A stretch of 22,629 nucleotides of DNA. It comes from a virus. The position numbers and the translations under genes are program-made. Shown piece after piece: positions 2,111-20,196 of the stretch. Below the pieces are notes generated by a model, which saw nothing but the letters and a program-made list of their open reading frames with translations, did not search any database and was not told the DNA's origin. Within the stretch, counting starts at the first letter, position 1, and each line of letters begins with the position of its first letter. The stretch spans positions 1-22,629 of the IMG/VR virus record IMGVR_UViG_3300027659_000227. One strand, written 5' to 3'.

Positions 2111-2731
2111 TTAATTTAAAATTAATTCTGTCAAGCTATCTGCTGACCCAACAACACCTTTAAGAAAAGTATTAAATGAGATACTAACTCGAGTTTGTTT
2201 TGCAACTACTGTTTCGACCATATGAACAAAATTAGATGGAAATAGATATAATCTACCTTGGGTTGCTTCCAACCACCATGATTCTGAATTATACTTATTA
2301 TAAGAAACTGTATTAACTCTAATTTCTCTCATATTGTGATTAGTTGTATTGGAATTAAAAAAATGTATTTTATCTTCTTCTGAAGATTGGAGATAAAATA
2401 CACCTGAAACATAACTATTCGGATGTGAGTGTTTATGGTGATATTGACCAGAGTCGGTATAATTTGCCCAAGATTGAGTTATATACACAGAGACTTCATT
2501 TGGATTGATTGCTAATGCATTGTTGCAATAGTCTTGGATACTTTCATCAAAAAATGATTTAAGATGATTTAATTCTGGATAATCATATACAATGTTACGA
2601 GGTTTGCTCGTTAAATTTCCGGAATTACTTCTCCGTTCAAAATTTAATACAGTTTCTTTTTCAATATCACTCACATCCCTATTCAATTCATATATTCCAA
2701 CTGGAGTTGGAAAAAGATCAAGTATAGCCAT
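2111..2731 (-). CDS. 2OG-Fe(II) oxygenase, small phage type
   Basis: A 206-aa protein resembling the phage/marine family TIGR02466 of putative 2-oxoglutarate/Fe(II)-dependent oxygenases. Visible signatures are an N-terminal LFPTPVGIYEL, then W88xN90, a histidine cluster YHHKHSHPNSYVSGVFYL (residues 97-114, with H101 and H103 the likely first metal-binding region), GRLYLFPSNFVHMVE (159-173, with H170 the likely distal iron ligand), and R181 in RVSISFN as the likely 2-oxoglutarate-binding arginine. The fold would be a double-stranded beta helix. It has an excellent GAGGAA ribosome binding site. It sits between fibre-associated small genes and gp13, so a virion protein could be its substrate, but nothing in the sequence identifies one. 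It differs from the second oxygenase at 16720-17310, which has a classical HxD motif. Confidence 0.8.
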   Translation of the reverse strand: MAILDLFPTPVGIYELNRDVSDIEKETVLNFERRSNSGNLTSKPRNIVYDYPELNHLKSFFDESIQDYCNNALAINPNEVSVYITQSWANYTDSGQYHHKHSHPNSYVSGVFYLQSSEEDKIHFFNSNTTNHNMREIRVNTVSYNKYNSESWWLEATQGRLYLFPSNFVHMVETVVAKQTRVSISFNTFLKGVVGSADSLTELILN

Positions 2732-5057: not shown

Positions 5058-5530
5058 TCAATTCAAGTCAGAATATTCTCTTAAATCGTCATTACTCATT
5101 AAGTCTAAATCTTCGTCTGGACCCATATTTCTGTCTGCGCTATCAAATCTTGTAATTGCGCCGCCAGACATTAAATCCTGACCTAGAGTTGTGTATCCTA
5201 GCATAAAGTCCGTAGGAGTAAATGTCAATGAATTCATGACGTCAAATGCTGGTAAATTGTCAAATGTTTGCGTCAATGCTTCATCTAGAAGATCTGTTGG
5301 TGTTATGTGATTTATGGAATTGTTTAGATTATATGATATTTTAGTAACGCCCTCTAATAAATCATACACCAATCCATCGTTTTTATTTCTAACGTGTCCG
5401 CTGTTCATCAAGTCATTTACAAATGCATCAGTTACATTTAACAAATCGGAATTAGATAAATTGCTACTTATGGCATTCATCAAATCGCCAATTATCTTAT
5501 CGTATAATAAGTCCTCTGGCAAATAATCAA
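5058..5530 (-). other. Acidic D-L-L/M-rich C-terminal tail of the giant fibre
   Basis: Roughly the last 155 residues leave the repeat style and read as helical segments punctuated by Asp-Leu-Leu/Met or close variants: PEDLL, GDLM, SDLL, NDLM, YDLL, TDLL, FDVM, TDFM, QDLM and LDLM. I know no family for it. Confidence 0.7.
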
Positions 5531-8500
5531 TAACAAAATTATTTCTCAAGAACTTCAATAAATTTCTGTAGTAGCTGATTTGTGTGGATGGATCGTTTGC
5601 AGTGAATCGGAGACGAACTTGACCGCTGCTTACATCTGCATTGAATACACCAACATTTGACCCTATAGTTGATTTTCCATATTCAACAATATTTGCTGTT
5701 GTGCCATCATGAATAATCATGGCTTCCAATGCAGCAAATCCATATAAACTTTCTACTTGTAACTGATACTTACCACTTCTATATGTCGTTGCAGAGAACG
5801 TATCGATTGTTTCAGTTGTAATAGTTGTGGTATTATATTTGTTTTGCGATGATGTAGTATTAAAGGATACATTTGCATTACCATTTACGCCAGCGCTTAC
5901 TGAGACACTTACAGTTTCAGTATTGACGAAATTAATGCTATTAGCGTTAAGTGTTCCAGTGCTGTTTTGCGAAACTTTAATATTTGATAGTGATCCACCA
6001 CCACCGCCGCCAGGAATAGTAACAGTCACTGCACTTCCAGTTGCGGTTGTTGTTACTCCATCACCGACAAAATTAATACTCTCAACTGCACTTGCAACTT
6101 GTGTGCCTTCATCTCTCACACTTATATTTGCAGCTGCACCAACCGATGTGAATGAAATATTTGCGTTTCCATTTGCGGAATCAGAAACTGTTATTGTTAC
6201 TGTTGCAGTGTTAACAAAATTTAATTGTTTTCCAGAGAGAATCGATCCATTATTTTGAGAAACACGAACTGTGCTCGCAGCACTATTAGCAGCTCCATAC
6301 GCATTCTGCGCAGTTGTTTGAGCAGTATTCGCTGCTCCATAAGCACTGTTTGCTTGACCGTAGGCAGCATTTGCTTGTCCGTATGCATTCTGAGCAGTTG
6401 TCTGAGCAGTGTTAGCAGCACCGTAGGCACTGTTCGCTTGTCCGTATGCATTCTGAGCAGTTGTCTGAGCAGTGTTAGCAGCACCGTAGGCGCTGTTCGC
6501 TTGTCCGTAGGCAGCATTTGCTTGTCCGTATGCATTCTGCGCAGTTGTTTGAGCAGTATTCGCTGCTCCATAAGCAGCATTTGCTTGTCCGTATGCATTC
6601 TGAGCAGTTGTCTGAGCAGTGTTAGCAGCACCATAGGCGCTGTTCGCTTGACCATATGCGTTTTGAGCAGTTGTCTGAGCGGTGTTAGCAGCTGTGTATG
6701 CTAGATTTGCTTGAGCATATGCGCTGTTCGCTTGATTATATGCAGCTGTAGAGTCTCCACCACCAGAACCACCGATAGAAAATATTGCAATATTTGCGTT
6801 ACCATCACCAGAATCAGTGACAGCGATAGTTACATTTGCAGTGTTGACAAAGTTTAATTGTTTTCCAGAAAGGGTTGATCCACCATTTGCGGATACACGA
6901 ACTGTATTTGCTGCTGTGTTTGCTTGACCATAGGCAGCGTTCGCTTGCCCATACGCATTTTGTGCTGTTGTCTGAGCAGTGTTCGCAGCGCCATACGCAT
7001 TTTGTGCTGTTGTCTGAGCGGTGTTAGCAGCTCCATAAGCGTTTTGAGCAGTAGTTTGTGCAGTATTTGCCGCACCATATGCATTTTGAGCAGTTGTCTG
7101 AGCTGTATTGGCGGCTGTGTATGCTAGATTTGCTTGACCATATGCATTTTGTGCTGTAGTCTGAGCAGTATTGGCAGCAGTATAAGCAGCATTGGCTTGT
7201 CCATATGCACTATTCGCTTGATTATGTGCAACTGTTATTGTTGGTTCAATTACAATATTACCAACCATTCCACTATGAGCAGTGCACTGATAAACATATG
7301 TGTTTCCACCAAGTTCAAAAGGCACCTTCCAATAAAGTTTACCCGTAACCTTGCCTTGAGCGTTGGATCCAGTGCTCACTGTGCCGTCTGTTGCTACATG
7401 CGTCAATCCTGTATCATAATTTGCGCCGCCATTCGATACACGAATTGCAAACGGATGACCAGCATTGTTTAAATTAAATGCAATTGTTTCGCCAGCACGC
7501 ACATAAATTGTAGGATCATCTATTGCGGAGCCATATTGATCAAACCGATATGCTGTTGCTCCGTTATTTGTGACAGCAAGTTCAGTTACTGCTGGCTGAT
7601 AGTCTGAATTAGCCTGAGCATACGCATTCTGAGCAGTCGTTTGAGCAGTGTTAGCAGCTCCATATGCGTTTTGAGCAGTTGTCTGAGCAGTATTGGCAGC
7701 ATTATAAGCATTATTTGCCTGACCGTATGCGTTTTGTGCTGTAGTTTGAGCGGTATTTGCTGCTGTGTATGCTAGATTCGCTTGACCGTATGCATTCTGA
7801 GCAGTCGTTTGTGCAGTATTAGCAGCACCGTATGCTGAATTCGCTTGATTGTATGCATTTCCAGCAGTTGTCTGAGCAGTGTTAGCAGCACCGTATGCAT
7901 TTTGTGCTGTTGATTGCGCGGTATTGGCAGCTGTATACGCTAGATTTGCCTGACCATAAGCATTTTGTGCTGTTGTCTGAGCTGTATTCGCAGCGCCATA
8001 GGCATTCTGAGCAGTCGTTTGAGCAGTGTTAGCAGCACCGTATGCATTTTGTGCTGTTGATTGTGCTGTATTAGCAGCACCATAAGCGTTTTGCGCTGTA
8101 GTTTGTGCTGTATTGGCAGCACCGTAAGCATCTTGGGCTGTCGTTTGTGCAGTATTAGCCGCTGTGTATGCTAAATTTGCTTGACCGTATGCGGAATTGG
8201 CTTGATTATGAGCAGAGGTTAAATTTGCTTGTGTTGCAACAGTATTACCGCCAACAGTTAAATGCTGCGCTTCAATATTAGCAACCAAAGTTGCATAATA
8301 ACTATTAGCAAAATTAATTACGTTACCAACATGATCAACATCTGGTAGTCCATCAAAAAGTTTATATTTTCCGTCAGAAGCATCGCGAGCCAATCCAGTT
8401 TGACTGAAAACGCCACTTGTGTTTTTAGCACCAATAAAACCAATATCAACTGTATCTGATGAATTATTATTTGCTGCGAGATACAACAATGGATCAGAAA

Positions 8501-11500
8501 CATTCAATGTCGCGACATTTATATAAGTTGTGTTTCCTTGTAAATAAATGTTGCCGCCAACAATTAAATCTTGAGTAACGTTTAATGTGCCAGTTATAAC
8601 ACCGCCAAGTTTTAAATTTGAATTATTTGCTGCAGCATATGCTAGATTTGCTTGACTATATGCCGCATTTGCTTGACTGTATGCATTCTGGGCTGTTGAT
8701 TGTGCTGTATTAGCAGCCCCATAAGCATTTTGGGCAGTTGTCTGGGCAGTATTTGCTGCCCCGTAGGCATCTTGAGCAGTCGTTTGAGCAGTGTTAGCAG
8801 CACTATAGGCATTTTGAGCGGTGGTTTGAGCTGTATTCGCAGCTCCATAAGCGCTATTCGCTTGATTGTATGCATTTCCAGCTGTTGTCTGCGCAGTATT
8901 TGCCGCACCATAAGCATTTTGCGCTGTAGTTTGGGCAGTTCCAGCATTTGTTGTTGCTGTATTTGCTTGAGTATATGCAGCATTTGCTTGACCGTATGCA
9001 TTCTGCGCAGTTGTCTGAGCGGTGTTAGCAGCACTATAGGCATTTTGAGCGGTGGTTTGAGCTGTGTTAGCAGCATTATAAGCATTATTTGCCTGACCGT
9101 ATGCGTCAGCAGCACTTGCTCCACTCTGAGAGAATGAAATATTAGCGTTTCCGTTACCGCCATCAGAAACAGTTACTAATACAGAAGCACTATTGACAAA
9201 ATTTAGTTGCTTATTTGTTAATGTTGATCCACCATTAGCAGATACACGAACTGTATTTGCTGCTGTATTTGCTTGATCATAAGCATCAGCAGCCTGATTA
9301 ACTTTGATGTGCAATTTAGGTGTGTAGGCATAATTTGTAGGATTGCCTTGAATGTAGTAACTAGAGAGTGCGCTTGATACTGGCACTTTCCAATATACGA
9401 TTCCACTTGATTGTGCTTGCGCAGAATTGCCTGTTAAGACTGTTGATGGATAACCATTTGCGAAAAGATCATTGCTGACATAAGTTAAACCGCTGGTGAC
9501 AAATGCACCATTAATGGAATTTTCTCTGAGTGTGAATGTTGTATAGTATGTTTGCCCTCCAGATGAGTTGTAAAGAGCACCAAGTCTAAATGCAATGGTA
9601 TCACCAGAATTCACATACAGAGTTTGATTACCAACAACTCCATCAATAGAGTAGTATACTTGATTTGGTATACCAAAGTCAACAATTTGTTCTATTGAAT
9701 ATTCGCGTGTTGAAACTATATTTGCTGTGTAATATGCTGTGTTTGCTCGAGAATACGCAATTATTGCTGTTGATTGTGCAGTATTTGCTGCGCCATAAGC
9801 AGTATTTGCCTGCCCATAAGCATTCTGAGCAGTAGTCTGGGCTGTGTTAGAAGCACCATAGGCATTTTGAGCAGTTGTCTGAGCAGCGTTAGCGGCTCCA
9901 TAAGCACTGTTTGCTTGTCCGTATGCATTTTGCGCAGTGGTTTGAGCAGTTCCAGCATTTGTTGTTGCTGTATTTGCTTGAGTATATGCATTCTGAGCAG
10001 TTGTCTGAGCTGTATTAGCCGCTGTGTATGCGTTTTGGGCTGTTGTTTGAGCAGTGTTGGCAGCACCATATGCATTTTGCGCAGTGGTTTGAGCAGTGTT
10101 GGCAGCACCATATGCATTTTGAGCGGTTGTCTGAGCAGTTCCAGCATTTGTTGTTGCTGTATTTGCTTGAGTATATGCAGCATTTGCTTGACCGTATGCT
10201 GCATTTGCTTGACTGTATGCGTTTTGAGCAGTTGTCTGAGCAGTATTAGCGGCTGCATATGCGTTTTGAGCTGTCGTTTGTGCAGTATTGGCAGCATTAT
10301 AAGCATTATTTGCCTGACCGTATGCGTCAGCAGCACTTGCTCCACTCTGAGAGAATGAAATATTAGCGTTTCCGTCGCCACTATCAGAAACAGTTACTAA
10401 TACAGAAGCACTATTAACAAAATTTAGTTGCTTACTTGAAAGAGTCGATCCACCATTAGCAGATACACGAACTGTATTTGCTGCTGTGTTTGCTGCAATG
10501 TAAGCGTTTTGTGCTGTTGTTTGTGCTGTATTCGCCGCACCATAAGCAGTATTTGCTTGACCATAGGCATTTTGAGCGGTCGTTTGAGCAGTATTAGCAG
10601 CTCCATACGCATTCTGCGCAGTGGTCTGGGCTGTATTTGCTGCACCATATGCTAAATTCGCTTGATTGTATGCATTTTGCGCAGTGGTTTGCGCAGTATT
10701 AGCAGCACCATAAGCGCTGTTTGCTTGACCGTATGCGTTTTGAGCTGTCGTTTGTGCAGTATTGGCAGCTGTGTATGCTAGGTTTGCCTGCCCATAAGCG
10801 TTCTGAGCAGTAGTCTGGGCTGTGTTAGCAGCGCCATAGGCATTTTGAGCAGTGGTTTGAGCAGTGTTGGCAGCACCGTAGGCATTTTGGGCTGTTGTTT
10901 GGGCTGTATTAGCAGCTGTATATGCTAGATTCGCTTGACCGTATGCATTATTTGCTTGAGAGTATGCAGCAGCAACATCAGTATTTACAGCGACTCTATT
11001 TCCAAGCACAGTAATACTGTTCGCTTCAACATTCGCAACGAGAGTCGCAAGATAAGTATTAGCGAAGTCTACAACGTTACCAACATGCCCTTCTTCTGCT
11101 AAACCATCGAACAACTTCCATTTACCATCAGTAGCATCTCTAGCAAAACCAGTGTGTGCGTATGTTCCACCACTATTTTTGCCACCCATGAAACCAATAT
11201 CAACAGAATCTGTCAACTTGTTATTCGATGCAAGATAAATCAAAGAGTCTTCAACAGAATATGTTGAAACGTTGATGAATGTCGTGTTACCTTCAAGATA
11301 AACGTTTCCACCAATAATTAAATCTTGAGTAACGTTTAATGTGCCAGTTATAACACCGCCAAGTTTTAGATTTGAATTATTAGCAGCAGTATAGGCATTA
11401 TTTGCTTGCGTATATGCAAGGTTTGCTTGATTATAAGAATTTTGCCCAATTGTTGTTGCAGTATTTGCTTGAATGTATGCTAGATTCGCTTGATCATAAG

Positions 11501-13286
11501 CAGTATTTGCTTGGGATCGAGCAGCATTGGCTTGAGCATAAGCGTTCTGAGCAGTAGTCTGGGCTGTGTTTGCAGCACCATACGCATTCTGAGCAGTCGT
11601 TTGCGCAGCGTTAGCAGCTCCATAAGCGTTCTGAGCAGTTGTCTGAGCAGTGTTGGCGGCTGTGTATGCTAGATTCGCTTGTCCATATGCACTATTCGCT
11701 TGATTATGTGCAACTGTTATTGTTGGTTCAATTACAATATTACCAACCATTCCACTATGAACAGTGCACTGATAAACATAAGTGTTTCCACCAAGTTCAT
11801 AAGGAACTTTCCAGTATAATGAGCCAGAAACTTTGCCTTGAGCAGAAGAACCAGTGCTTACTGTTCCATCAGTTGCAACATGAGTCAGTCCAGTGTCATA
11901 GTTTGAACCACCAGATGAAACACGAATCGCAAATGGGTGACCAGCATTGTTTAAATTAAATGCAATCGTCTCGCCAGCACGGACATATAGTGTTGGATCA
12001 TCAACTGCAGAACCATACTGATCAAATCGATATGCGCTTGCGCCGTTGTTCGTAACATCAAGGCGAGTTACAGCAGGTTGATAATTTGAATTTGCTTGAG
12101 CATAAGCATTTTGGGCTGTTGATTGAGCTGTGTTTGCAGCACCATACGCATTCTGAGCAGTCGTTTGCGCAGCGTTAGCAGCTCCATAAGCGTTCTGAGC
12201 AGTCGTTTGCGCAGTGTTGGCTGCGCCATACGCTAGATTTGCTTGACCATATGCATTCTGACTTGTAGTTTGAGCAGTATTGGCTGCGCCGTATGCGTTT
12301 TGAGCAGTCGTCTGAGCAGTTCCAGCATTTGTTGTTGCTGTATTTGCTTGTCCATATGCGCTGTTAGCCTGCCCATAAGCATTCTGAGCAGTTGTCTGGG
12401 CAGTGTTAGCAGCTGTATATGCTAGATTTGCTTGACCATATGCATTCTGACTTGTAGTTTGAGCAGTGTTAGCCGCTGCGTATGCTAGATTTGCTTGGTT
12501 ATATGCAGCTGTAGAATCTCCTCCACCACCGCCAGCAGCTGCGAATATTGCGATATTTGCATTACCATTGCCAGAATCTGTTACAGTAATTGTAACATTG
12601 GCTGTGTTTACAAAATTTAATTGCTTCGAAGATAATGTGGATCCGCTATTTTGTGAAACTCTGACAGTATTAGCAGATGTATTGGCAGCACCGTATGCGT
12701 TCTGTGCAGTTGTTTGGGCAGCGTTGGCTTGGTCGTATGCTGGACCAGGACTATTAGCATATGCGCCATTAGCAGCAGCGTATGCTAATAGTGCTATATT
12801 ATATGAATTATTTGCATTATTAGCTGCTACAGCTGCAGTATTTGCTGAATTATTCGCAATGTTCGCAGCGACATTTGCTGTGTTAAGCGCAAAGACGCTA
12901 ATATTTAATACTGTGTTGACTGCATCTCTGGCATTTTTAACTGAGTTTGCAGTTGCGGCTTCTGTTGTGGATGTAGAATTAGTTGAATCAACTAATCTAG
13001 CACTGATTGTAATTGAATCTGTTTGCGCATTAGAAGTGATGTCTATTCCACTTCCAGGTAAAAGAGAAACTGCATCGTCTGTTGAGTCTGCAGATACTAT
13101 AGTTCCATTTGCGTTGATTGTAACAAATGTGTTGCCGCCAGAAAGTCGTTGAACACTATTTGAAGAATTTTTATAGAACAGATAACCATCAGCATAATTT
13201 AATGCCAATTCGCCGTGATCGAGGTTTGCTGCTGCTGGAACGTTACCTGATGCGCCAGAATTTTTAATTATAATTTTTGTTGGCAT
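5058..13286 (-). CDS. Giant modular tail fibre with cupredoxin-like domains
   Basis: A 2742-codon open frame without interruption. Residues 1-65 form an N-terminal domain (IIIKNSGASGNVPAAANLDHGELALNYADG) like those starting other phage fibres. About half of the protein is alanine heptads (AYGQANx, AYGAANT, AQTTAQN). Between them sit cupredoxin-like domains at about residues 404-524 and 1900-2020, a ligand-less relative at about 1195-1330, a LNVTQDL/SLIYLASNN module at about 636-765 and 1556-1686, and several copies of a 45-residue VRVSxNxGSxLxxKQLNFVN beta module. Residues about 2485-2585 (ETIDTFSATTYRSGKYQLQ, IVEYGKS, VRLRFT) are a domain familiar from marine phage virion proteins. The last 155 residues are acidic with repeated DLL/DLM motifs. 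It is a probable homotrimeric fibre. The ribosome binding site is weak, and the ATG is supported by the MPTxxxxK start shared with its neighbour. Confidence 0.85.
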   Translation of the reverse strand: MPTKIIIKNSGASGNVPAAANLDHGELALNYADGYLFYKNSSNSVQRLSGGNTFVTINANGTIVSADSTDDAVSLLPGSGIDITSNAQTDSITISARLVDSTNSTSTTEAATANSVKNARDAVNTVLNISVFALNTANVAANIANNSANTAAVAANNANNSYNIALLAYAAANGAYANSPGPAYDQANAAQTTAQNAYGAANTSANTVRVSQNSGSTLSSKQLNFVNTANVTITVTDSGNGNANIAIFAAAGGGGGDSTAAYNQANLAYAAANTAQTTSQNAYGQANLAYTAANTAQTTAQNAYGQANSAYGQANTATTNAGTAQTTAQNAYGAANTAQTTSQNAYGQANLAYGAANTAQTTAQNAYGAANAAQTTAQNAYGAANTAQSTAQNAYAQANSNYQPAVTRLDVTNNGASAYRFDQYGSAVDDPTLYVRAGETIAFNLNNAGHPFAIRVSSGGSNYDTGLTHVATDGTVSTGSSAQGKVSGSLYWKVPYELGGNTYVYQCTVHSGMVGNIVIEPTITVAHNQANSAYGQANLAYTAANTAQTTAQNAYGAANAAQTTAQNAYGAANTAQTTAQNAYAQANAARSQANTAYDQANLAYIQANTATTIGQNSYNQANLAYTQANNAYTAANNSNLKLGGVITGTLNVTQDLIIGGNVYLEGNTTFINVSTYSVEDSLIYLASNNKLTDSVDIGFMGGKNSGGTYAHTGFARDATDGKWKLFDGLAEEGHVGNVVDFANTYLATLVANVEANSITVLGNRVAVNTDVAAAYSQANNAYGQANLAYTAANTAQTTAQNAYGAANTAQTTAQNAYGAANTAQTTAQNAYGQANLAYTAANTAQTTAQNAYGQANSAYGAANTAQTTAQNAYNQANLAYGAANTAQTTAQNAYGAANTAQTTAQNAYGQANTAYGAANTAQTTAQNAYIAANTAANTVRVSANGGSTLSSKQLNFVNSASVLVTVSDSGDGNANISFSQSGASAADAYGQANNAYNAANTAQTTAQNAYAAANTAQTTAQNAYSQANAAYGQANAAYTQANTATTNAGTAQTTAQNAYGAANTAQTTAQNAYGAANTAQTTAQNAYTAANTAQTTAQNAYTQANTATTNAGTAQTTAQNAYGQANSAYGAANAAQTTAQNAYGASNTAQTTAQNAYGQANTAYGAANTAQSTAIIAYSRANTAYYTANIVSTREYSIEQIVDFGIPNQVYYSIDGVVGNQTLYVNSGDTIAFRLGALYNSSGGQTYYTTFTLRENSINGAFVTSGLTYVSNDLFANGYPSTVLTGNSAQAQSSGIVYWKVPVSSALSSYYIQGNPTNYAYTPKLHIKVNQAADAYDQANTAANTVRVSANGGSTLTNKQLNFVNSASVLVTVSDGGNGNANISFSQSGASAADAYGQANNAYNAANTAQTTAQNAYSAANTAQTTAQNAYGQANAAYTQANTATTNAGTAQTTAQNAYGAANTAQTTAGNAYNQANSAYGAANTAQTTAQNAYSAANTAQTTAQDAYGAANTAQTTAQNAYGAANTAQSTAQNAYSQANAAYSQANLAYAAANNSNLKLGGVITGTLNVTQDLIVGGNIYLQGNTTYINVATLNVSDPLLYLAANNNSSDTVDIGFIGAKNTSGVFSQTGLARDASDGKYKLFDGLPDVDHVGNVINFANSYYATLVANIEAQHLTVGGNTVATQANLTSAHNQANSAYGQANLAYTAANTAQTTAQDAYGAANTAQTTAQNAYGAANTAQSTAQNAYGAANTAQTTAQNAYGAANTAQTTAQNAYGQANLAYTAANTAQSTAQNAYGAANTAQTTAGNAYNQANSAYGAANTAQTTAQNAYGQANLAYTAANTAQTTAQNAYGQANNAYNAANTAQTTAQNAYGAANTAQTTAQNAYAQANSDYQPAVTELAVTNNGATAYRFDQYGSAIDDPTIYVRAGETIAFNLNNAGHPFAIRVSNGGANYDTGLTHVATDGTVSTGSNAQGKVTGKLYWKVPFELGGNTYVYQCTAHSGMVGNIVIEPTITVAHNQANSAYGQANAAYTAANTAQTTAQNAYGQANLAYTAANTAQTTAQNAYGAANTAQTTAQNAYGAANTAQTTAQNAYGAANTAQTTAQNAYGQANAAYGQANTAANTVRVSANGGSTLSGKQLNFVNTANVTIAVTDSGDGNANIAIFSIGGSGGGDSTAAYNQANSAYAQANLAYTAANTAQTTAQNAYGQANSAYGAANTAQTTAQNAYGQANAAYGAANTAQTTAQNAYGQANAAYGQANSAYGAANTAQTTAQNAYGQANSAYGAANTAQTTAQNAYGQANAAYGQANSAYGAANTAQTTAQNAYGAANSAASTVRVSQNNGSILSGKQLNFVNTATVTITVSDSANGNANISFTSVGAAANISVRDEGTQVASAVESINFVGDGVTTTATGSAVTVTIPGGGGGGSLSNIKVSQNSTGTLNANSINFVNTETVSVSVSAGVNGNANVSFNTTSSQNKYNTTTITTETIDTFSATTYRSGKYQLQVESLYGFAALEAMIIHDGTTANIVEYGKSTIGSNVGVFNADVSSGQVRLRFTANDPSTQISYYRNLLKFLRNNFVIDYLPEDLLYDKIIGDLMNAISSNLSNSDLLNVTDAFVNDLMNSGHVRNKNDGLVYDLLEGVTKISYNLNNSINHITPTDLLDEALTQTFDNLPAFDVMNSLTFTPTDFMLGYTTLGQDLMSGGAITRFDSADRNMGPDEDLDLMSNDDLREYSDLN
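5850..6280 (-). other. Tandem VRVS/KQLNFVN beta modules (last copies)
   Basis: This holds the final and most divergent copies of the 45-residue module with the core VRVSxNxGSxLxxKQLNFVN followed by VTVSDxxNGNANISF. Related sequences INFVGDGVTTTATG and INFVNTETVSVSV follow, separated by a glycine-rich PGGGGGG linker. The other copies are at about 6740-6915, 9107-9262, 10327-10482 and 12510-12675. Confidence 0.75.
7226..7590 (-). other. Cupredoxin-like domain, copy 2 of the giant fibre
   Basis: A domain of about 120 residues with RAGETIAFNLNNAGHPFAI, then LYWKVPFELGG and YVYQCTAHSGMVGNIVIE. The apparent type-1 copper ligands are H1944 (in GHPF), C2001, H2004 and M2007. The Cys-x2-His-x2-Met spacing equals that of the amicyanin loop. 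It is flanked on both sides by heptad repeats. Confidence 0.72.
8230..8625 (-). other. LNVTQDL/LLYLAANN module, copy 2
   Basis: Residues about 1556-1686: GVITGTLNVTQDLIVGGNIYLQ, DPLLYLAANN, DIGFIGAKN, DGKYKLFDGLP and ATLVANIEAQ. It is homologous to residues about 636-765 of the same protein and to the C-terminal half of the 497-aa fibre. It is a beta-rich fibre domain of unknown role. Confidence 0.75.
9299..9702 (-). other. Degenerate cupredoxin-like domain lacking copper ligands
   Basis: Residues about 1195-1330 follow the same plan as the two intact copies: QTLYVNSGDTIAFRL, a GLTYVSND strand, TGNSAQAQSSGIVYWKVP and a final KLHIKV. The GHPF histidine is replaced by a GGQTYYTTF stretch, and the Cys-His-Met loop is replaced by IQGNPTNYAYTP, so no ligand remains. 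Confidence 0.6.
10990..11385 (-). other. LNVTQDL/LIYLASNN module, copy 1
   Basis: Residues about 636-765: GVITGTLNVTQDLIIGGNVYLE, EDSLIYLASNN, DIGFMGGKN, DGKWKLFDGL and ATLVANVEAN. It is closely related to copy 2 and to the module in the 497-aa fibre, and marks a shared cassette of exchangeable fibre domains. Confidence 0.75.
11715..12078 (-). other. Cupredoxin-like domain, copy 1 of the giant fibre
   Basis: Residues about 404-524: VTNNGASAYRFDQYG, RAGETIAFNLNNAGHPFAI, LYWKVPYELGG and YVYQCTVHSGMVGNIVIE. The apparent ligands are H450, C507, H510 and M513, the His...Cys-x2-His-x2-Met set of small blue-copper proteins, with the amicyanin-length loop. No signal peptide is attached; the domain is embedded in the fibre. 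Confidence 0.74.
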
Positions 13287-13846: not shown

Positions 13847-14179
13847 TTATCGTGTTACCTGTGGAGTTACAATTAAAATGCCTTCAACAATTCTGGTTGA
13901 ATTGTTGGCAGTATCAGTCATTTTAACATCATATAGATATCTTCCAGCCTTTAAATTTGAAGTTGTGGCTGCACTCAGAAATAAATTAATATTTCCAGTA
14001 TTGGCATCCATTTTATTAACATTAATGTTAGCTGAAACGTTTGCTGAATAATACGATTTTCTTATGGAGCTAGCAAATGTGTAATTTGTGACGTTTAACA
14101 CATCACCATCATCACCAGTAATAGTAATTGATGTCTCAAATGTAGATCCTTGATCAATCATCAACTCGGCGTATGGCAT
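13847..14179 (-). CDS. Virion structural protein, Ig/BppU-like fold suspected
   Basis: A 110-aa protein starting AELMIDQGSTFETSITITGDDGDVLNVTNYTF, then SIRKSYYSA, LSAATTSNLKAGRYLYDVKM, and ending EGILIVTPQVTR. I recall similar proteins in many T4-like cyanophages. The pattern of an N-terminal 'DQGxTFxxxI' strand and a C-terminal 'GRYxYDVxxxD' strand resembles the N-terminal domain of baseplate protein BppU and related Ig-like virion domains. A perfect TATAAATA late promoter lies 26 nt before the start, with an AGGAA ribosome binding site. It is first in a tight run with the 63-aa and 101-aa genes and probably sits at the baseplate-fibre junction, which is inference. Confidence 0.78.
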   Translation of the reverse strand: MPYAELMIDQGSTFETSITITGDDGDVLNVTNYTFASSIRKSYYSANVSANINVNKMDANTGNINLFLSAATTSNLKAGRYLYDVKMTDTANNSTRIVEGILIVTPQVTR

Positions 14180-14223: not shown

Positions 14224-15159
14224 TTAGACTTCCCAATCGTTTTCGCATGATGGCGAAATATTGTATGTTATAGCGCGTTTTTCCAATTTTCTATTTATAT
14301 AATCTACCCCAGAATATGCCTTATAGCTCTCCAATACTGAATCATCTAGATGCTCTAAAAATGCCTTAAATTCAATATCTGAAATTAATGCTCGTTGTGA
14401 TAAGATATCGTCTGAGACAACTGGGTTTACCGTTTGTTTTGATGTGTGCAGATTTGCATTTAAATAGTGATAGCAAGAAATTTCCTTTCCATGAAATAAT
14501 TTATACCCCGCAGCAAAAGAAGCCAAAGTCATTATCTGTTCTTCTCCATGAAAGAATATTTTCGGATTTATTCCAACATTTTGGAGCCAATCAGAATGAG
14601 TAAAGAAGTTGCCTGCAAAAACATGTATTGCTGGCATAACTGTTTCTGTTGCTGGGATATGTTCTCCATGAGCATATATCCAAAAATTTTTATTAAATTG
14701 ATAAAATTTGGCTACGGTTGCAACTCTTTTATTATGTTGAAGGCAGGGAGTATCATCGATAACCTCAAAATTTTTACAATTAGAGGATATAATAATTTTA
14801 TTTGTGTCGCATTTAGAAACTGCTTCTCTGTAATCATTAATGAGCATACGATCCCAATCAGGATCAAATACCATATGTGAATCTATTTGATAATAAAAAT
14901 CCTCATCAGTTAATTGTAAACTGTTAATATGCCGAGCCCATCCAACGCCCTCAGAATATTCTGGATCAATTCTTTTATATTTTACATCTTTTCTTTTTAT
15001 TAATTCTGGATAAAGCGTTTCAAGGCTTTTATCTATGGTATTCTGTTCAAAAATAGCATATGTCGCTTCATGTCTATTAGATTTAAATTTAATTAAACTC
15101 TCTATAGTATGATGCAACAAATTATCTCTATATGAACATATGCTTACAAATATTTTCAT
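14224..15159 (-). CDS. Glycosyltransferase, Skp1 GlcNAc-transferase (GT60/PF11397) type
   Basis: A 311-aa cytoplasmic glycosyltransferase with a GT-A-like plan. Residues 1-12 are KIFVSICSYRD, the start typical of the PF11397 'GlcNAc' family. GVGWARH (71-77) and YYQIDSHMVFDPDWD (89-103) follow, in which D93-S-H95 is the likely metal/sugar-nucleotide motif of the family. Later come FAGNFFTHSD (181-190), FFHGEEQIMTLASFAAGYKLFHG (202-224) and CYHYL. The best-known member is Gnt1 of Dictyostelium, which adds GlcNAc to hydroxyproline on Skp1. The gene overlaps the preceding one by 4 nt (ATGA). It is last in a cassette beginning with a prolyl-hydroxylase-like enzyme, next to a proline-rich fibre gene. 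Sugar donor and acceptor are unproven. Confidence 0.85.
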   Translation of the reverse strand: MKIFVSICSYRDNLLHHTIESLIKFKSNRHEATYAIFEQNTIDKSLETLYPELIKRKDVKYKRIDPEYSEGVGWARHINSLQLTDEDFYYQIDSHMVFDPDWDRMLINDYREAVSKCDTNKIIISSNCKNFEVIDDTPCLQHNKRVATVAKFYQFNKNFWIYAHGEHIPATETVMPAIHVFAGNFFTHSDWLQNVGINPKIFFHGEEQIMTLASFAAGYKLFHGKEISCYHYLNANLHTSKQTVNPVVSDDILSQRALISDIEFKAFLEHLDDSVLESYKAYSGVDYINRKLEKRAITYNISPSCENDWEV

Positions 15160-15998
15160 TCTTGGTTACTGCTATCTTTAGGTGGATCGACGTCATTTAA
15201 TGCATATTGTTTTTTTACTTTATGGTTTTTTCTATAAAATTGATTTCTATGCGAAGTCGGATCGTAATTGATTTTAGATTGCTGTTCAATGTTAGGTGGT
15301 CCGTATCCGCAGACAATTTCCTTATTATAAAATGGTATAATTTGCAAAATTGGATCACCAGCTTTTATTGTGTATTGCATTTTTCGTTTCGCGGCAATAA
15401 TTAAATTCATTGCACTGAAAGATTTATAGTCAACCACACCAGGAAATACATAAAAATTATCTAAAAATTCTGGATCTGCGTGAAACCATGCAGGAAGTAA
15501 TAACGCAGATATATTTTTATCGTATGTAAAAATTTTCCATGGAGAAGTAAGATTAAACGGCTTAAGTGGTATACCATCATGGACATTAAGTAAACCTTCT
15601 ACAATGCTAGCATCCATATTGACAGGTTGTTGAAATGGAGATTTTCTTTTGCCTCCACCCATAACACATGCAACACCAGCTTTATTCGCTTTAAAATGAT
15701 AATCCGACCAGCTGGAAACAATATATCCTAGTTCAGAATAATCATACATGCCAGGGCAAAGAGGAAATGTAAATTGCTTTCCAGTTTCCTGAGAATATTT
15801 TTTTGTGTTTAATGGGACATCTTTTGCCTTTTGAATAGGTATAGAAGAAAAAATTAACTTAGAAGAATCTATGAATTCGATTTGATTCTTGGTTTGATTC
15901 GAATATACTTCTTCTGCACTGTTTGATATTGTGTTAATTTCTTCTTCAATATTATATGAAGCAGATTTCTTTTTAGTAAAAAAGTCAAAAATACTCAT
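15156..15998 (-). CDS. DUF6065-like protein, divergent paralogue
   Basis: A 280-aa protein of unknown function. The region SPWKIFTYDKN (152-162), ISALLLPAWFH (163-173), YVFPGVVDYKSF (183-194) and YTIKAGDPILQIIPFYN (209-225) lines up with the clearer motifs of the next gene upstream (GWSTLFIPPINH, CLGGLVDTDNYP, IPAGTPLVTAIPIKR). The two are therefore divergent paralogues, probably of one beta-barrel fold. The N-terminal 60 residues are unique and Ser/Asn/Glu-rich. It has no signal peptide or membrane segment. It overlaps both neighbours by 4 nt (ATGA), so it is made together with the oxygenase and glycosyltransferase. A role in the same modification pathway is guilt by association. Confidence 0.7.
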   Translation of the reverse strand: MSIFDFFTKKKSASYNIEEEINTISNSAEEVYSNQTKNQIEFIDSSKLIFSSIPIQKAKDVPLNTKKYSQETGKQFTFPLCPGMYDYSELGYIVSSWSDYHFKANKAGVACVMGGGKRKSPFQQPVNMDASIVEGLLNVHDGIPLKPFNLTSPWKIFTYDKNISALLLPAWFHADPEFLDNFYVFPGVVDYKSFSAMNLIIAAKRKMQYTIKAGDPILQIIPFYNKEIVCGYGPPNIEQQSKINYDPTSHRNQFYRKNHKVKKQYALNDVDPPKDSSNQE

Positions 15999-16726
15999 TT
16001 CTTTTCTCTTAATTCATTTGTATAAACATGTTTTCTAGTTCTTTGTTGTTTCCTTATTTTCTCTATATGTTTAAACTCACTTTTGGTCATATCCCTAATT
16101 TTTGGTTTTTTACTAAATGAGTTTCTTTTAATCGGAATAGCAGTAACTAATGGAGTTCCTGCAGGAATACAATCATCAAATCCAGGAGTATTCCAAATAG
16201 CAGGAAAATTTACTTCTTTAGGATAATTGTCCGTATCAACTAAACCACCCAGGCATGTGAACGGCTGATCGATATGATTAATTGGAGGTATGAATAACGT
16301 TGACCATCCTGGTGCAGTTTTTATAACCCAATAGTTTATAAATTTTAAAGCATTTAATGGATATCGTGGCGCCACATCATCGCCTAACTGCGCTGGGCTG
16401 TGAAATTCAGCAATAGCAATTTCTGGTGGATTATGTATTTTAATTTCTGTCATTTCTGCGTCTACCTTAACATGTAGATCAGCGCAGAGAGGCATAGTAT
16501 ATCCAAGAGACATTGCGTCTATTAACGGGAAACATTTTTTTGCTGTTAACGCAGGTCCACCAAATGATGGATCACTCACTGATTCATTAACAGGAGGAAT
16601 TCTCTTAAACCAATCTGGCAGATACTTTATCGCAGGTTTTGGTTCTGGGAATATCCCAACATAATTTGGATGGCAATAAAATTCTATAATATCATTTTTA
16701 AAGATGCTGACAAGTTTATTTAACAT
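15995..16726 (-). CDS. DUF6065-like protein
   Basis: A 243-aa protein resembling, as I recall it, the uncharacterised DUF6065 family. Visible blocks are PAIKYLPDWFKRIPP (31-45), KKCFPLIDAMSLGYTMPL (63-80), APGWSTLFIPPINH (138-151), PFTCLGGLVDTDNYP (155-169), VNFPAIWN (172-179) and IPAGTPLVTAIPIKR (187-201). The C-terminal 40 residues are very basic (KKPKIRDMTKSEFKHIEKIRKQQRTRKH), possibly for nucleic-acid or virion contact. It overlaps the oxygenase gene by 7 nt and the next paralogue by 4 nt. No catalytic residues can be assigned. I recall similar proteins in marine phages near oxygenase genes, but the function is unknown. Confidence 0.74.
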   Translation of the reverse strand: MLNKLVSIFKNDIIEFYCHPNYVGIFPEPKPAIKYLPDWFKRIPPVNESVSDPSFGGPALTAKKCFPLIDAMSLGYTMPLCADLHVKVDAEMTEIKIHNPPEIAIAEFHSPAQLGDDVAPRYPLNALKFINYWVIKTAPGWSTLFIPPINHIDQPFTCLGGLVDTDNYPKEVNFPAIWNTPGFDDCIPAGTPLVTAIPIKRNSFSKKPKIRDMTKSEFKHIEKIRKQQRTRKHVYTNELREKK

Positions 16727-17310
16727 GATCTTTCACCCATTACCCAAGCAACTAATGATTTTCTAACACCAGATTTAATAGGCGCAACTCTGTGTGGCAT
16801 CCAAGACGCAAATAGTATAACTGTTCCTGGATTGGGCTTAAATACTTGTGGCTTTTCAATGTTGCCATCAGTCACTATTTCAAATTCGCCGCCACTATAT
16901 TTTTTGGGATCCGACAATATTATTGTTGCGCTAATTTTTCTCTCAAATTTATTGAACTTCGGCTCATAATCAAAATGCCATGTGTAATGTTGACCTTTGG
17001 AATATTTTGTGTATTGGAATGCCTCAAATCCATCAATATTTTGCATAAAATGTGAGTGATTAGTTTGTGCAACTAACCAATTAAACTTATCAAAAATCCA
17101 TTGAGAATCATTGTTCATAAAAAGCCAAGATATATGGCTGTCTCTTACTTCTTTTTGAGTTTTTCCTGATTTATCATAACCAACTTTTCCTAAAGAAAAT
17201 TCTTGTAATTCTTCTAAATCGTTGATTCTATCAACTTCTTCTGGAGTGAAGTAGTTTTCAGCCACGACGAAGTGTGGCAATTCTCGCATATATTTGGGAA
17301 ACGATGGCAT
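16720..17310 (-). CDS. Prolyl-4-hydroxylase-like 2OG-Fe(II) oxygenase
   Basis: A 196-aa double-stranded-beta-helix oxygenase of the P4H/PKHD type. Counting from the ATG at 17310, the iron ligands are H112 and D114 (YTWHFDYEP) and H173 (WMPHRVAP), and R183 (SGVRKSLVAW) is the 2-oxoglutarate anchor. LSDPKKYSGGEFEI (132-145) and PNPGTVILFASWMPHRV complete the family pattern. An upstream in-frame TTG at 17322 exists, but the GGAG six nt before the ATG lies inside that extension, so the ATG is preferred. It is first in the cassette and follows the proline-rich fibre gene after a 46-nt gap carrying a sigma70-like promoter. Predicted activity is hydroxylation of a protein side chain such as proline; the substrate is not shown. 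Confidence 0.87.
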   Translation of the reverse strand: MPSFPKYMRELPHFVVAENYFTPEEVDRINDLEELQEFSLGKVGYDKSGKTQKEVRDSHISWLFMNNDSQWIFDKFNWLVAQTNHSHFMQNIDGFEAFQYTKYSKGQHYTWHFDYEPKFNKFERKISATIILSDPKKYSGGEFEIVTDGNIEKPQVFKPNPGTVILFASWMPHRVAPIKSGVRKSLVAWVMGERSC

Positions 17311-17316
17311 AATAAA

Positions 17317-17320
17317 CTCC
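17317..17320 (-). promoter_or_regulatory. Ribosome binding site deciding the oxygenase start
   Basis: A minus-strand GGAG followed by TTTATT and ATG (17310-17308). It sets the start at the ATG and rules out the TTG at 17322, which would place this site inside the gene. Confidence 0.75.
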
Positions 17321-17335
17321 AATTGCTACATACTA

Positions 17336-17364
17336 ATTATACTATACAATTTAAAATTATTCAA
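17336..17364 (-). promoter_or_regulatory. Sigma70-like promoter of the modification cassette
   Basis: The minus strand reads TTGAAT (17364-17359), a 17-nt spacer, then TATAAT (17341-17336). This is a perfect -10, a 4/6 -35 and ideal spacing. The -35 overlaps the end of the proline-rich fibre gene. Transcription would start near 17329, upstream of the oxygenase ribosome binding site. It differs from the TATAAATA late promoters elsewhere in the window. Confidence 0.5.
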
Positions 17365-18904
17365 TCTTCACTACTATATATCCACCGCTCGGAACACTAA
17401 TTGGATATCCTGCAGGAGCTCCTGGTGTTGTTCCTGGACCAGTTCCAACATTGTCTGGATATTCCCAATAATTAATCGTTGTTTCTGGCACATATGGCGC
17501 ATCAGAACCTACAGGACCTCCTGGGAAATATACTCCAAGAACAGTAGTTGGTGTTCCAGCATTACCAGGAACGTATGGATAGTTCGTTGCATTAGGAGGA
17601 GTTGGATTTCCACCAACTGTATTGTAACTTTCTCCACTCACATATGGATAGCTCGTTGCATTAGGAGGAGTTGGATTCCCAGGAACTGTATTATACACAG
17701 CAGCTGTATACGGATAATTTGGTGAACTCCCACCAACTGTGTTATAACTTTCCCCACTCACATATGGATAGTTCGTTGCATTAGGAGGAGTTGGATTTCC
17801 ACCAACTGTGTTATAACTTTCCCCACTCACATATGGATAGTTCGTTGCATTAGGAGGAGTTGGATTTCCACCAACTGTATTGTAACTTTCTCCACTCACA
17901 TATGGATAGTTCGTTGCATTAGGAGGAGTTGGATTTCCACCAACTGTGTTATAACTTTCCCCACTCACATATGGATAGCTCGGTGAATTCCCAGGAACTG
18001 TATTGTAACTTTCTCCACTTACGTATGGATAGCTCGGTGAATTCCCAGGAACTGTATTGTAACTGGTATCGATAGGGAAATATGTTATGTAAAAGTTTCG
18101 TCCAATAGCCGCATGTGGACCTGCTGCTGGATCAGCATAAACATTAGCTGGACCAGGCAAAGATGGAGAATTTCCAGTTTGTGGATAATATTGAAATCCA
18201 AGTTGCACAGGATCTTCTTCAAAAATTTCAGCAAATCCATTAGTATTACTGTAAAACAATGTTCCCCAAAACACACCTTGAACAGGATAACTTGGTGGAT
18301 TTCCTGGAACTGTATTATACACAGCAGCTGTGTATGGATAGTTCGGTGAATTCCCAGGAACTGTATTATACACAGCCGCTGTGTATGGATAGTTCGTTGG
18401 ATTAGGTGGATTTGGATTTCCTGGAACTGTATTATACACAGCAGCTGTGTATGGATAGTTCAGTGGATTAGGTGGATTTGGATTCCCAGGAACTGTATTA
18501 TACACAGCAGCTGTGTATGGATAGTTCGTTGGATTAGGTGGATTTGGATTTCCAGGAACTGTATTATACACAGCAGCTGTGTATGGATAGTTCGGTGGAT
18601 TCCCAGGAACTGTGTTGTAACTTTCTCCACTTACATATGGATAGTTCGGTGCATTAGGTGGATTTGCGCTACCAGGAACTGTATTATACACAGCAGCTGT
18701 GTATGGATAGTTCGTTGGATTAGGTGGATTTGGATTTCCAGGAACTGTATTGTAGCTCGGAGAATTACCAGAACCGCCTCGCCCTGATACTGTTCCCTTA
18801 TACCGCCCATAGGCAATACTTAATGTGCTGCTAGAATTAAATGTGGTAGTTCCACGATAATTCCCAGGAATCCATGTTTTATTTAAATCAAAACTACGAG
18901 GCAT
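17357..18904 (-). CDS. Proline/asparagine/tyrosine-rich repeat fibre protein
   Basis: A 515-aa protein built from 16 copies of a YNTV-led repeat of 17-23 residues. The long forms are YNTVPGNPNPPNPTNYPYTAA plus V (22 aa) and YNTVGGNPTPPNATNYPYVS plus GES (23 aa); the short forms lack the PPNP/PPNA segment. Residues about 1-50 are a unique Ser/Gly-rich head. Residues about 204-282 are a unique insert (VFWGTLFYSNTNGFAEIFEEDPVQLG, then FYITYFPIDTS), separating a mostly YPYTAAV half from a mostly YPYVSGES half. The end is a glycine/proline tail closing PSGGYIVVKIE, a common final motif of phage fibre proteins. It follows the 429-aa gene after 2 nt. It is a likely extended fibre or decoration protein and a candidate substrate for the adjacent hydroxylase and glycosyltransferase. 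Confidence 0.78.
   Translation of the reverse strand: MPRSFDLNKTWIPGNYRGTTTFNSSSTLSIAYGRYKGTVSGRGGSGNSPSYNTVPGNPNPPNPTNYPYTAAVYNTVPGSANPPNAPNYPYVSGESYNTVPGNPPNYPYTAAVYNTVPGNPNPPNPTNYPYTAAVYNTVPGNPNPPNPLNYPYTAAVYNTVPGNPNPPNPTNYPYTAAVYNTVPGNSPNYPYTAAVYNTVPGNPPSYPVQGVFWGTLFYSNTNGFAEIFEEDPVQLGFQYYPQTGNSPSLPGPANVYADPAAGPHAAIGRNFYITYFPIDTSYNTVPGNSPSYPYVSGESYNTVPGNSPSYPYVSGESYNTVGGNPTPPNATNYPYVSGESYNTVGGNPTPPNATNYPYVSGESYNTVGGNPTPPNATNYPYVSGESYNTVGGSSPNYPYTAAVYNTVPGNPTPPNATSYPYVSGESYNTVGGNPTPPNATNYPYVPGNAGTPTTVLGVYFPGGPVGSDAPYVPETTINYWEYPDNVGTGPGTTPGAPAGYPISVPSGGYIVVKIE
17570..18060 (-). repeat. YPYVSGES-type repeats, 69-nt units
   Basis: Tandem units encode YNTVGGNPTPPNATNYPYVS plus GES. Three adjacent 69-nt copies at about 17760-17970 are nearly identical in DNA, so they duplicated recently or are being homogenised. 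One YPYTAAV unit is embedded at about 17690-17740. Confidence 0.88.
18290..18770 (-). repeat. YPYTAAV-type repeats, 66-nt units
   Basis: Tandem units encode YNTVPGNPNPPNPTNYPYTAA plus V, with shorter 17-residue variants and one YPYVSGES-type unit at about 18600-18660. The DNA of the long units is nearly identical. The block lies on the N-terminal side of the unique insert. Confidence 0.88.
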
Positions 18905-18906
18905 TG

Positions 18907-20196
18907 TTATCTCGCATCTTTTACTGCAAGAGTTCCCAAATATGTAGAACCACCATCATATGTTGTGAACGTCCAAAGGTCTCTTGCGTTTGCAGATGTT
19001 GTTGCTGGTGGAACTAACCCACCTGCCCAATATACGGTATTAGACCAAGTTGGTGTTTTTGATCCAGTTACATCTTGAAGAATAATTAACGAAACAGTAA
19101 ATCCAACACCAGAAGTTGGTGCATTAGTAAATGTAATTTGTCTATTTCCAGAAGAACCTGTCAACGTTAATTTGTGCCAATTAGATTGATTTAAATCAAT
19201 TGTCTTTGATCCGCTGACATTTGTATCTTCTAAAATATAATCAGAATATGATTTTAATTTCAATGAAACATTTGCTTTTTGATTATTTACTAGGAATTGA
19301 TATGCGTTTGACGTCTCATTCCAATAGATATCAGCATTTCCACTGCTACGTCTAACTCTAAAAATACCATCTCCATCGGTATTCGCTCCGAATCTCAGCA
19401 CATAAACAGAATCCGCAGAAACTGCTGGAGCCAAAATAGGCTCAGTAACAGTCAATGAATTTACATATGCAACATTTAGTCTTGCGATTTCTGCATTAGC
19501 AGTTCCAGCAAAATATCCATTTGAGAATATAGAATTACCAGTAACGTTTAATGTCCCTGCAACATTTAAATTTTGTGAAATTACTGTATTTCCAGAAACA
19601 CTTAAATTTTGTGATAAACCAGTGTTTCCATATACAAATAAATCTTGTCCAACATAAACATTTAGTGAAGCGTTCAAATGGCTTCGAACATTTGATGATA
19701 TGTATACGTTCGTTAAATTTGAAGTTCCAACAACTATTAAATTTTGTGATACAGTAGAGTTAGAAGATACAAAGGTATTAGAATAGAAACGCGCATTACC
19801 AACAGATTCCAACATTGTGACAACATTTAATGTGCCAGCAACGTTAACATTTTGAGATATAACTGTATTTTTAGCAACAGATAAATTTGATTGTAATATT
19901 GTATTTCCAGCAACAGTTAGCACATTTCCAACTAACCCATCATCTGTTACAATTAAATCTGTTGTGGTTGTTGTTCCGCCGATAGATGCATCTCCAGATC
20001 CCTCAATTGTAAGGAGAGTTCCTCCAGTTGATCTGGCGATAGACACTGCACCGTTTGCTATTCTAAAATTACTATTATCCTTCACATAAGGATGATTGCG
20101 TAAAATATTACGATCAGAAATAAGATCATTCGTGGCTACTCGCCATTCATCAAATGTATTAGTTACTTGAACTTGTGTAATATTTGCGTTAGCCAT
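18907..20196 (-). CDS. Fibre-like virion protein with beta repeats
   Basis: A 429-aa protein. The N-terminus ANITQVQVTNTFDEWRVATNDLI is, as I recall it, a common start of virion proteins in T4-like marine phages. Residues about 70-240 are repeats of the pattern SGNTVISQNLNVAGTLNV, a beta-helix or triple-beta-spiral-like shaft. Residues about 255-330 contain DSVYVLRFGANTDGDGIFRVRR and IYWNETSNAYQFLVNN. The end has ITFTNAPTSGVGFTVSLIILQDVTG, WSNTVYWAGGLVPP and LWTFTTYDGGSTYLG, a C-terminal beta domain like that of the 497-aa fibre. A strong AGAGGAA ribosome binding site is present. Its start overlaps the 71-aa gene by 8 nt. By position it occupies the T4 gp11/gp12/wac slot; homology to those is not claimed. 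Confidence 0.8.
   Translation of the reverse strand: MANANITQVQVTNTFDEWRVATNDLISDRNILRNHPYVKDNSNFRIANGAVSIARSTGGTLLTIEGSGDASIGGTTTTTDLIVTDDGLVGNVLTVAGNTILQSNLSVAKNTVISQNVNVAGTLNVVTMLESVGNARFYSNTFVSSNSTVSQNLIVVGTSNLTNVYISSNVRSHLNASLNVYVGQDLFVYGNTGLSQNLSVSGNTVISQNLNVAGTLNVTGNSIFSNGYFAGTANAEIARLNVAYVNSLTVTEPILAPAVSADSVYVLRFGANTDGDGIFRVRRSSGNADIYWNETSNAYQFLVNNQKANVSLKLKSYSDYILEDTNVSGSKTIDLNQSNWHKLTLTGSSGNRQITFTNAPTSGVGFTVSLIILQDVTGSKTPTWSNTVYWAGGLVPPATTSANARDLWTFTTYDGGSTYLGTLAVKDAR

Follow-up and report, generated by a model that had tools for sequence, protein, structure and literature searches.

In the Skp1 pathway of Dictyostelium and Toxoplasma, the 2-oxoglutarate (2OG) oxygenase PhyA is combined with Gnt1, a GT60 glycosyltransferase that acts on the hydroxyproline of Skp1 (PMC6939170), and in a plant pathogen the prolyl 4-hydroxylase (P4H) and GnT are fused. 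GT60 also includes a T. cruzi enzyme acting on mucins at Ser/Thr (PMC8724618). Among viruses, the Mimivirus L230 lysyl hydroxylase-glucosyltransferase acts on a repetitive structural protein of the virus itself, the viral collagen (PMC9614988), and the fibre of Pam3 follows a plan of a TNF-like base, a Gly-rich stem, and a hypervariable tip (PMC9608196). A study of collagen-like proteins stated that neither bacteria nor viruses have the prolyl hydroxylases that their collagens require (PMC3368898), and a phage that chemically decorates its own fibre shaft has rarely been documented. A viral DNA stretch of 22,629 nucleotides (IMG/VR record IMGVR_UViG_3300027659_000227, positions 1 to 22,629; hereafter the window) carries five consecutive genes for a repeat fibre, a 2OG-Fe(II) oxygenase (OX), a first and a second DUF6065-like protein (D1 and D2), and a glycosyltransferase (GT). 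Gene content, protein families, and co-occurrence indicate that these genes probably constitute a conserved and widespread fibre-modification operon, with the fibre as the putative substrate. No earlier description of the cassette was found in an open-access literature library.

The five genes occupy the minus strand where the initial annotation had placed them, in the order fibre, OX, D1, D2, GT, and the reading frames of OX, D1, D2, and GT overlap by 4–7 bases, as in one operon.

17357..18904, minus strand: repeat fibre, the proposed substrate (515 aa; N-cap hidden Markov model (HMM) 8e-22, C-cap HMM 1e-22)
17317..17320, minus strand: Shine-Dalgarno-like GGAG ahead of the OX ATG (17310), seen in the sequence and giving the 196-aa numbering
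16720..17310, minus strand: OX, P4H/PKHD-like 2OG-Fe(II) oxygenase (196 aa; PF13640 2e-17; phrog_61)
15995..16726, minus strand: D1, DUF6065 protein with a predicted dUTPase-like fold (243 aa; PF19541 1.5e-6)
15156..15998, minus strand: D2, diverged paralogue of D1 (280 aa; phrog_7084 2e-17; 23% identity to D1)
14224..15159, minus strand: GT, PF11397/GT60 glycosyltransferase (311 aa; PF11397 3.9e-29; DSH)

The membership of OX in the 2OG oxygenase superfamily is established by its match to PF13640 (64.3 bits against a cut-off of 27, E 2e-17). The iron/2OG site pointed out in the initial annotation (H112, D114, H173, R183) is complete in the window OX, and among the 48 aligned OX, H112, D114, and R183 are each kept in 48/48 and H173 in 43/48. 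A profile of these 48 sequences matches PKHD-type hydroxylases (5e-15) and prolyl 4-hydroxylase (1e-10) in the PDB, in agreement with the P4H-type assignment made at that stage, and a Tet-like enzyme at 0.4 only. Against the equivalog model of PKHD-type PiuC/YbiX (NCBIfam PRK05467), OX scores 67.4 bits, below the cut-off of 143.

Similarly, the placement of GT in PF11397/GT60, first proposed from a DSH motif, is now established by 102.7 bits against a curated cut-off of 21 (E 3.9e-29), and the motif (D93-S94-H95) is invariant in 34 aligned GT. Single-sequence searches with GT gave no match in viral contigs or in the phage collection; a two-sequence profile used as bait found 41 loci in viral contigs, and a PDB sequence search returned no solved relative of GT. 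The sole isolated phage found with a GT relative is Xanthomonas phage XacN1 (2e-8), whose proteomics revealed at least two glycoproteins that, as its authors suggest, phage GTs may make (PMC5852040). By analogy, these glycoproteins are consistent with fibre modification.

D1 passes the cut-off of PF19541 (DUF6065; 28.3 bits against 26.6, E 1.5e-6), and 35 of the 37 aligned D1 match this family at E up to 1, the best at 1.8e-13. D2 has no Pfam hit to DUF6065, and its kinship to D1 comes via phrog_7084 (2e-17); the DUF6065-like label, which the initial annotation attached to both proteins while giving them no role, thus holds in Pfam for D1 and in phrog_7084 only for D2. The AF2 model of D1 (pLDDT 92, pTM 0.84) resembles dUTPases (Foldseek 9.5e-5; best Z 10.8 over 119 residues, rmsd 3.4, Foldseek/VIA), all 50/50 of the matches listed for it being dUTPases, and a dUTPase-like fold is predicted for D1/DUF6065. 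In a comparison with the five dUTPase motifs, made by eye, D1 keeps a motif III-like GLVDTDxY, and the motif II Arg and motif IV Gln appear absent; D2 is without the second Asp of GLVDTDxY. No papers on DUF6065 were found in the open-access library, and the sources searched assign it no function or fold.

The viral contigs were searched with three baits, the fibre C-cap, D1, and GT, and the resulting surveys have many contigs in common; the ratios count loci where the contig allows, and the surveyed loci bear L-numbers. With the C-cap, OX lies downstream in 28/28 non-redundant uncut loci, and OX and D1 are both present in 37/38 raw loci, the remaining one being cut off. With D1 (best 80 of 178 candidates, 41 non-redundant loci), OX lies upstream in 39/40, D2 is adjacent in 38/39, and GT and the fibre are present in 34/39 and 33/34, respectively. 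With GT, relatives of more than 40% identity sit in the cassette, and OX is present wherever the contig reaches it. Counted from the oxygenase, 45 of 55 non-redundant OX genes stand directly behind a fibre, and in three more a sulfotransferase-like gene directly precedes OX with the fibre upstream. D1 is a more constant partner of the fibre and OX than GT is; given these tallies, with L160 and L161 lacking both D2 and GT, the core consists of fibre-OX-D1, with D2 and GT as additions. The co-occurrence of oxygenase, GT, and fibre genes in related phages, which the initial annotation had named as a test of its proposal, is near-exceptionless from any bait.

Because this fixed gene set stands directly behind the fibre in many aquatic phages, the phage probably decorates its own fibre shaft. 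The decoration first proposed is partly supported: near-constant co-occurrence, together with the GT60 membership of GT, lends good inferential support to a fibre-modifying cassette, whereas the hydroxyproline component is not established, the proline contexts varying between fibres. The nearest cassette relative, L169, has the same gene order and a D1 86% identical to that of the window; its contig is in a Chitinophagaceae metagenome-assembled genome, in which it may be a mis-binned phage, and a hint to the host is possible. The sulfotransferase-like genes are located at L020:7273-7923 (PF03567 only 0.1), L022:1860-2552 (3e-6), and L063:1602-2309 (1e-5).

The fibre itself is built of two caps, two runs of repeats, and a central insert.

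18770..18904, minus strand: N-cap, residues 1–45 (conserved in relatives; AF2 pLDDT about 80–93 over residues 21–50)
18284..18769, minus strand: outgoing repeats of the YNTVPGNPNPPNPTNYPY type (162 residues)
18065..18283, minus strand: mid-fibre non-repeat insert, proposed tip or receptor-binding domain (73 residues)
17540..18064, minus strand: returning repeats (175 residues)
17357..17539, minus strand: C-cap, last 60 residues and stop (from conservation and AF2)

The window fibre is one of 49 non-redundant full-length fibres with both caps. Its relatives have the N-cap and C-cap in common; between these, the repeats change in sequence and are interrupted by a non-repeat insert. In the window fibre, 8+8 [YF]N anchors flank the insert, in line with the 16 repeats originally counted; a plain proline-rich rod, as then described, does not fit the 73-residue non-repeat insert near the middle of the repeats and the conserved caps at both ends. 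In 30 fibres (17 clusters), the insert is situated at the repeat midpoint (left fraction 0.4997, standard deviation 0.0135, r 0.99), and this position holds across total fibre lengths of 353–884 aa. The simplest reading of the midpoint position is that the fibre probably forms an out-and-back shaft with the insert at its tip. In the AF2 model of the whole fibre, a confident fold is confined to the two caps, and the repeats have pLDDT <50, the model thus giving no structure for the shaft; Foldseek with this model gave no significant match. A single jelly-roll domain matches the two caps jointly (residues 13–515), though only weakly (Z 4.0). Compared by composition, the shaft halves have a mean mirror symmetry of 0.075 versus a direct symmetry of 0.04. 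In addition, the insert type of the window (18065-18283, minus strand) recurs in L016 and L032, whose fibres differ in other respects, and this recurrence suggests that tip domains may be exchanged between fibres.

In the proposed mechanism, the five genes would serve as a fibre-maturation operon, and the repeat protein would be a late virion fibre. The two end caps would probably form one base domain, and the repeats would run out and back between this base and the variable tip domain inserted at the midpoint. During infection, the 2OG-Fe(II) oxygenase would hydroxylate a residue that recurs in the shaft repeats, and the shaft would receive a sugar from the GT60-family enzyme, in the simplest case at the new hydroxyl. 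Meanwhile, the DUF6065 protein and its paralogue, with their predicted dUTPase fold, may assist the oxygenase as a further enzyme, a nucleotide-binding partner, or an assembly platform. The likely result would be a stiffer, protease-resistant, hydrated, or masked shaft, with the tip held away from the particle. A fuller version, somewhat short of an even chance and offered tentatively, is an undescribed widespread system in which OX and a repurposed dUTPase-fold DUF6065 protein hydroxylate Asn (or Pro) of the out-and-back shaft repeats, which the GT60 enzyme, with or without a sulfotransferase, then decorates; such a system would be the phage equivalent of mucin or collagen maturation.

Several points weigh against a fibre-modification operon. 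Gene association is not proof that the fibre is the substrate, the D1 tally is limited to the best 80 candidates, and the surveys have many contigs in common. Distant GT relatives (24–28% identity, L033–L047) are located outside the cassette, haloarchaeal viruses carry DUF6065 with no PF13640 oxygenase in the genome, and in a split arrangement the OX adjoining GT is without the distal iron His. In this arrangement (L014, L016–L019, L032, and duplicates), two fibres are present, one followed by OX-GT and the other by OX-D1-D2. Every OX-GT copy has Ala or Ser in place of the distal iron His (MPHR to MPAR/MPSR), with the gene still retained, and the remaining aligned OX keep this His, including those preceding D1; the Fe/2OG residues are kept in 43/43 non-redundant OX outside OX-GT pairs. 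With the distal His lost beside GT, OX and GT need not act sequentially on one fibre, and for the same reason the OX-GT copy may be a substrate-binding partner of GT.

The neighbourhoods of DUF6065 extend beyond the cassette. D1-OX pairs stand behind collagen-like GXX fibres in L158:3981-5299 and L170:7992-9306, the latter within a Dehalococcoidia chromosome record. In the haloarchaeal tailed viruses L005:11908-12750 and L006:7914-8795, DUF6065 is separated from ribonucleotide reductase by one gene and lies a few genes from a Gly-rich host-range adhesin. Judged from these gene neighbourhoods, repetitive fibres are the constant theme of DUF6065, its enzymatic role being putative.

The presence of GT is linked to fibre length: GT is absent in five loci, all with short fibres (213–312 aa, 4–9 [YF]N), whereas the 35 loci with GT have medians of 629 aa and 37 [YF]N (p about 3e-4). 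Of the dipeptides, only [YF]N persists in nearly all fibres, at a median of 8 per 100 residues, and no proline context is conserved; therefore, hydroxy-Asn, hydroxyproline (Hyp), and Ser/Thr are all candidates. Lys hydroxylation is ruled out by 0 Lys in the window repeats and 0–1% of the repeat region across fibres. Tyr as a universal acceptor is likewise ruled out, since Phe is found throughout the repeats in L098, L099, L115, and L122 while their OX stay 81–88% identical. As one form of fibre modification, OX would make 4-hydroxyproline and the GT60 enzyme would add alpha-GlcNAc, as in the Skp1 pathway. This is possible if doubtful: the OX profile matches solved prolyl 4-hydroxylases at 1e-10, Gnt1 sets the precedent (PMC6939170), every fibre has at least 4 prolines per 100 residues, and the collagen-like fibre beside D1-OX in L158 is rich in N-P-G, but PG, NP, and YP are each zero in some fibres, PG and NP contexts vanish between L008 and L001 (OX 73%, GT 71% identical), and L020/L025 have just 4–5% proline, yet full OX and GT. 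Conversely, two of the five GT-less loci (L160/L161) are proline-rich, and the short GT-less fibres, small in number, lean away from proline as the GT-linked feature. In another form, rather unlikely, OX would make beta-hydroxy-Asn at [YF]N, with or without later glycosylation. The retention of this dipeptide alone and the exclusion of Tyr point in this direction, as does the presence of GT, which tracks the number of [YF]N and not proline; on the other hand, the conserved [YF]N may be purely structural, OX is like PKHD/P4H enzymes and unlike known Asn hydroxylases, and L091 and L160 are poor in [YF]N. In a mucin-like alternative, the GT60 enzyme would need no oxygenase and would glycosylate Ser/Thr in the repeats, as the T. 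cruzi enzyme acts on mucins (PMC8724618). Every fibre offers at least 11 Ser/Thr per 100 residues, and in split loci the OX copy next to GT has probably lost its activity, judging by its residues. Nevertheless, this alternative is unlikely: GT is almost always in one operon with an intact-site OX, and the constant OX would be left unexplained.

Two further explanations depart from fibre modification as the main role. dUTPases are typically trimers, as are tail fibres, which would suit an assembly role in which the OX fold and the dUTPase-fold D1/D2 are mainly fibre chaperones and modification is minor. The retention of OX that has lost an iron ligand, the closeness of DUF6065 to a Gly-rich adhesin in haloviruses, and the trimeric chaperone with beta and helical parts required by the Pam3 fibre (PMC9608196) agree with such a role, which the invariance of the Fe/2OG residues in all OX outside OX-GT pairs nonetheless renders quite unlikely. 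Hypermodification of DNA or nucleotides, in which OX, a dUTPase-like enzyme, and GT would build a modified base, could draw on the predicted fold of D1, on DUF6065 near ribonucleotide reductase in halovirus L005 and S-RIM4, and on the DNA-repair role usually proposed for phage oxygenases (PMC9146016). It is, however, very improbable: in every lineage found, the cassette immediately follows the fibre within a group of tail-fibre genes, the members of GT60 act on proteins, the OX profile reaches a Tet-like enzyme at 0.4 only, and GT presence tracks fibre length.

On either side of the cassette lies a gene with a tail-fibre or tail fibre assembly-like match.

18907..20196, minus strand: upstream tail-fibre protein, conserved neighbour (429 aa; phrog_9017 tail fibre 1.5e-13)
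13847..14179, minus strand: downstream neighbour, phrog_1084, L-shaped tail fibre assembly-like (from the phrog match)

The former has an equivalent position in L001, L002, and L008–L013, and the latter in L001, L008, L013, and L169. The neck proteins Hc2 and Ad2 are encoded elsewhere in the window (Ad2 best match Caulobacter phage Cr30, 49%), which assigns the window to a tailed phage that is T4-like in the wider sense. Close to a separate group of fibre genes, the window encodes a second 2OG oxygenase, which is of another type (2111-2731, minus strand; PF13759 7e-20, phrog_81). A 2742-aa protein built of NTAQTTAQNAYGQAN repeats (5058-13286, minus strand) is probably another long fibre, and a shorter related protein is encoded at 3475-4968. 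Further OX genes are present at L092:3880-4449 and L160:6210-6785, near other genes of those loci; the latter lies two genes ahead of a Gly-rich fibre with an N-cap similar to that of the cassette fibres.

Compared with the Skp1 pathway, the cassette likewise combines a 2OG oxygenase with a GT60/PF11397 enzyme. However, Skp1, a cytosolic subunit of a ubiquitin ligase, is modified at one Pro, whereas the cassette would act on a repetitive phage fibre without a conserved Pro context and adds two DUF6065-like proteins. In the case of Mimivirus L230, a viral hydroxylase and glycosyltransferase also act on the virus's own repetitive structural protein, as gene content suggests for the cassette, but L230 is one fused protein modifying Lys, and the cassette has separate genes of other families and almost no repeat Lys. 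The Gly-rich adhesins, such as Pam3 gp24 and S16 gp38, share with the plan proposed here a base beta-domain from which low-complexity loops run out to a hypervariable tip (PMC9608196); in contrast, the cassette repeats are rich in Tyr/Asn/Pro/Thr, extend up to about 700 residues, and have enzymes encoded alongside. If the proposed mechanism applies, some aquatic phages would display modified, mucin- or collagen-like shafts, and the D1-OX pairs behind collagen-like phage fibres call into question the statement that viruses lack prolyl hydroxylases for their collagens (PMC3368898). D1 is a member of DUF6065/phrog_7084, a family that here gains a predicted dUTPase-like fold and a partner, the oxygenase. 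OX falls in the broad family of cyanophage 2OG-Fe(II) oxygenases (phrog_61), usually read as DNA-repair or metabolic enzymes (PMC9146016, PMC3037559), and for phage oxygenases of its class, DNA repair or auxiliary metabolism is the usual annotation; with OX tied to a structural fibre and a protein glycosyltransferase family, a whole group of such genes may instead be virion-maturation enzymes.

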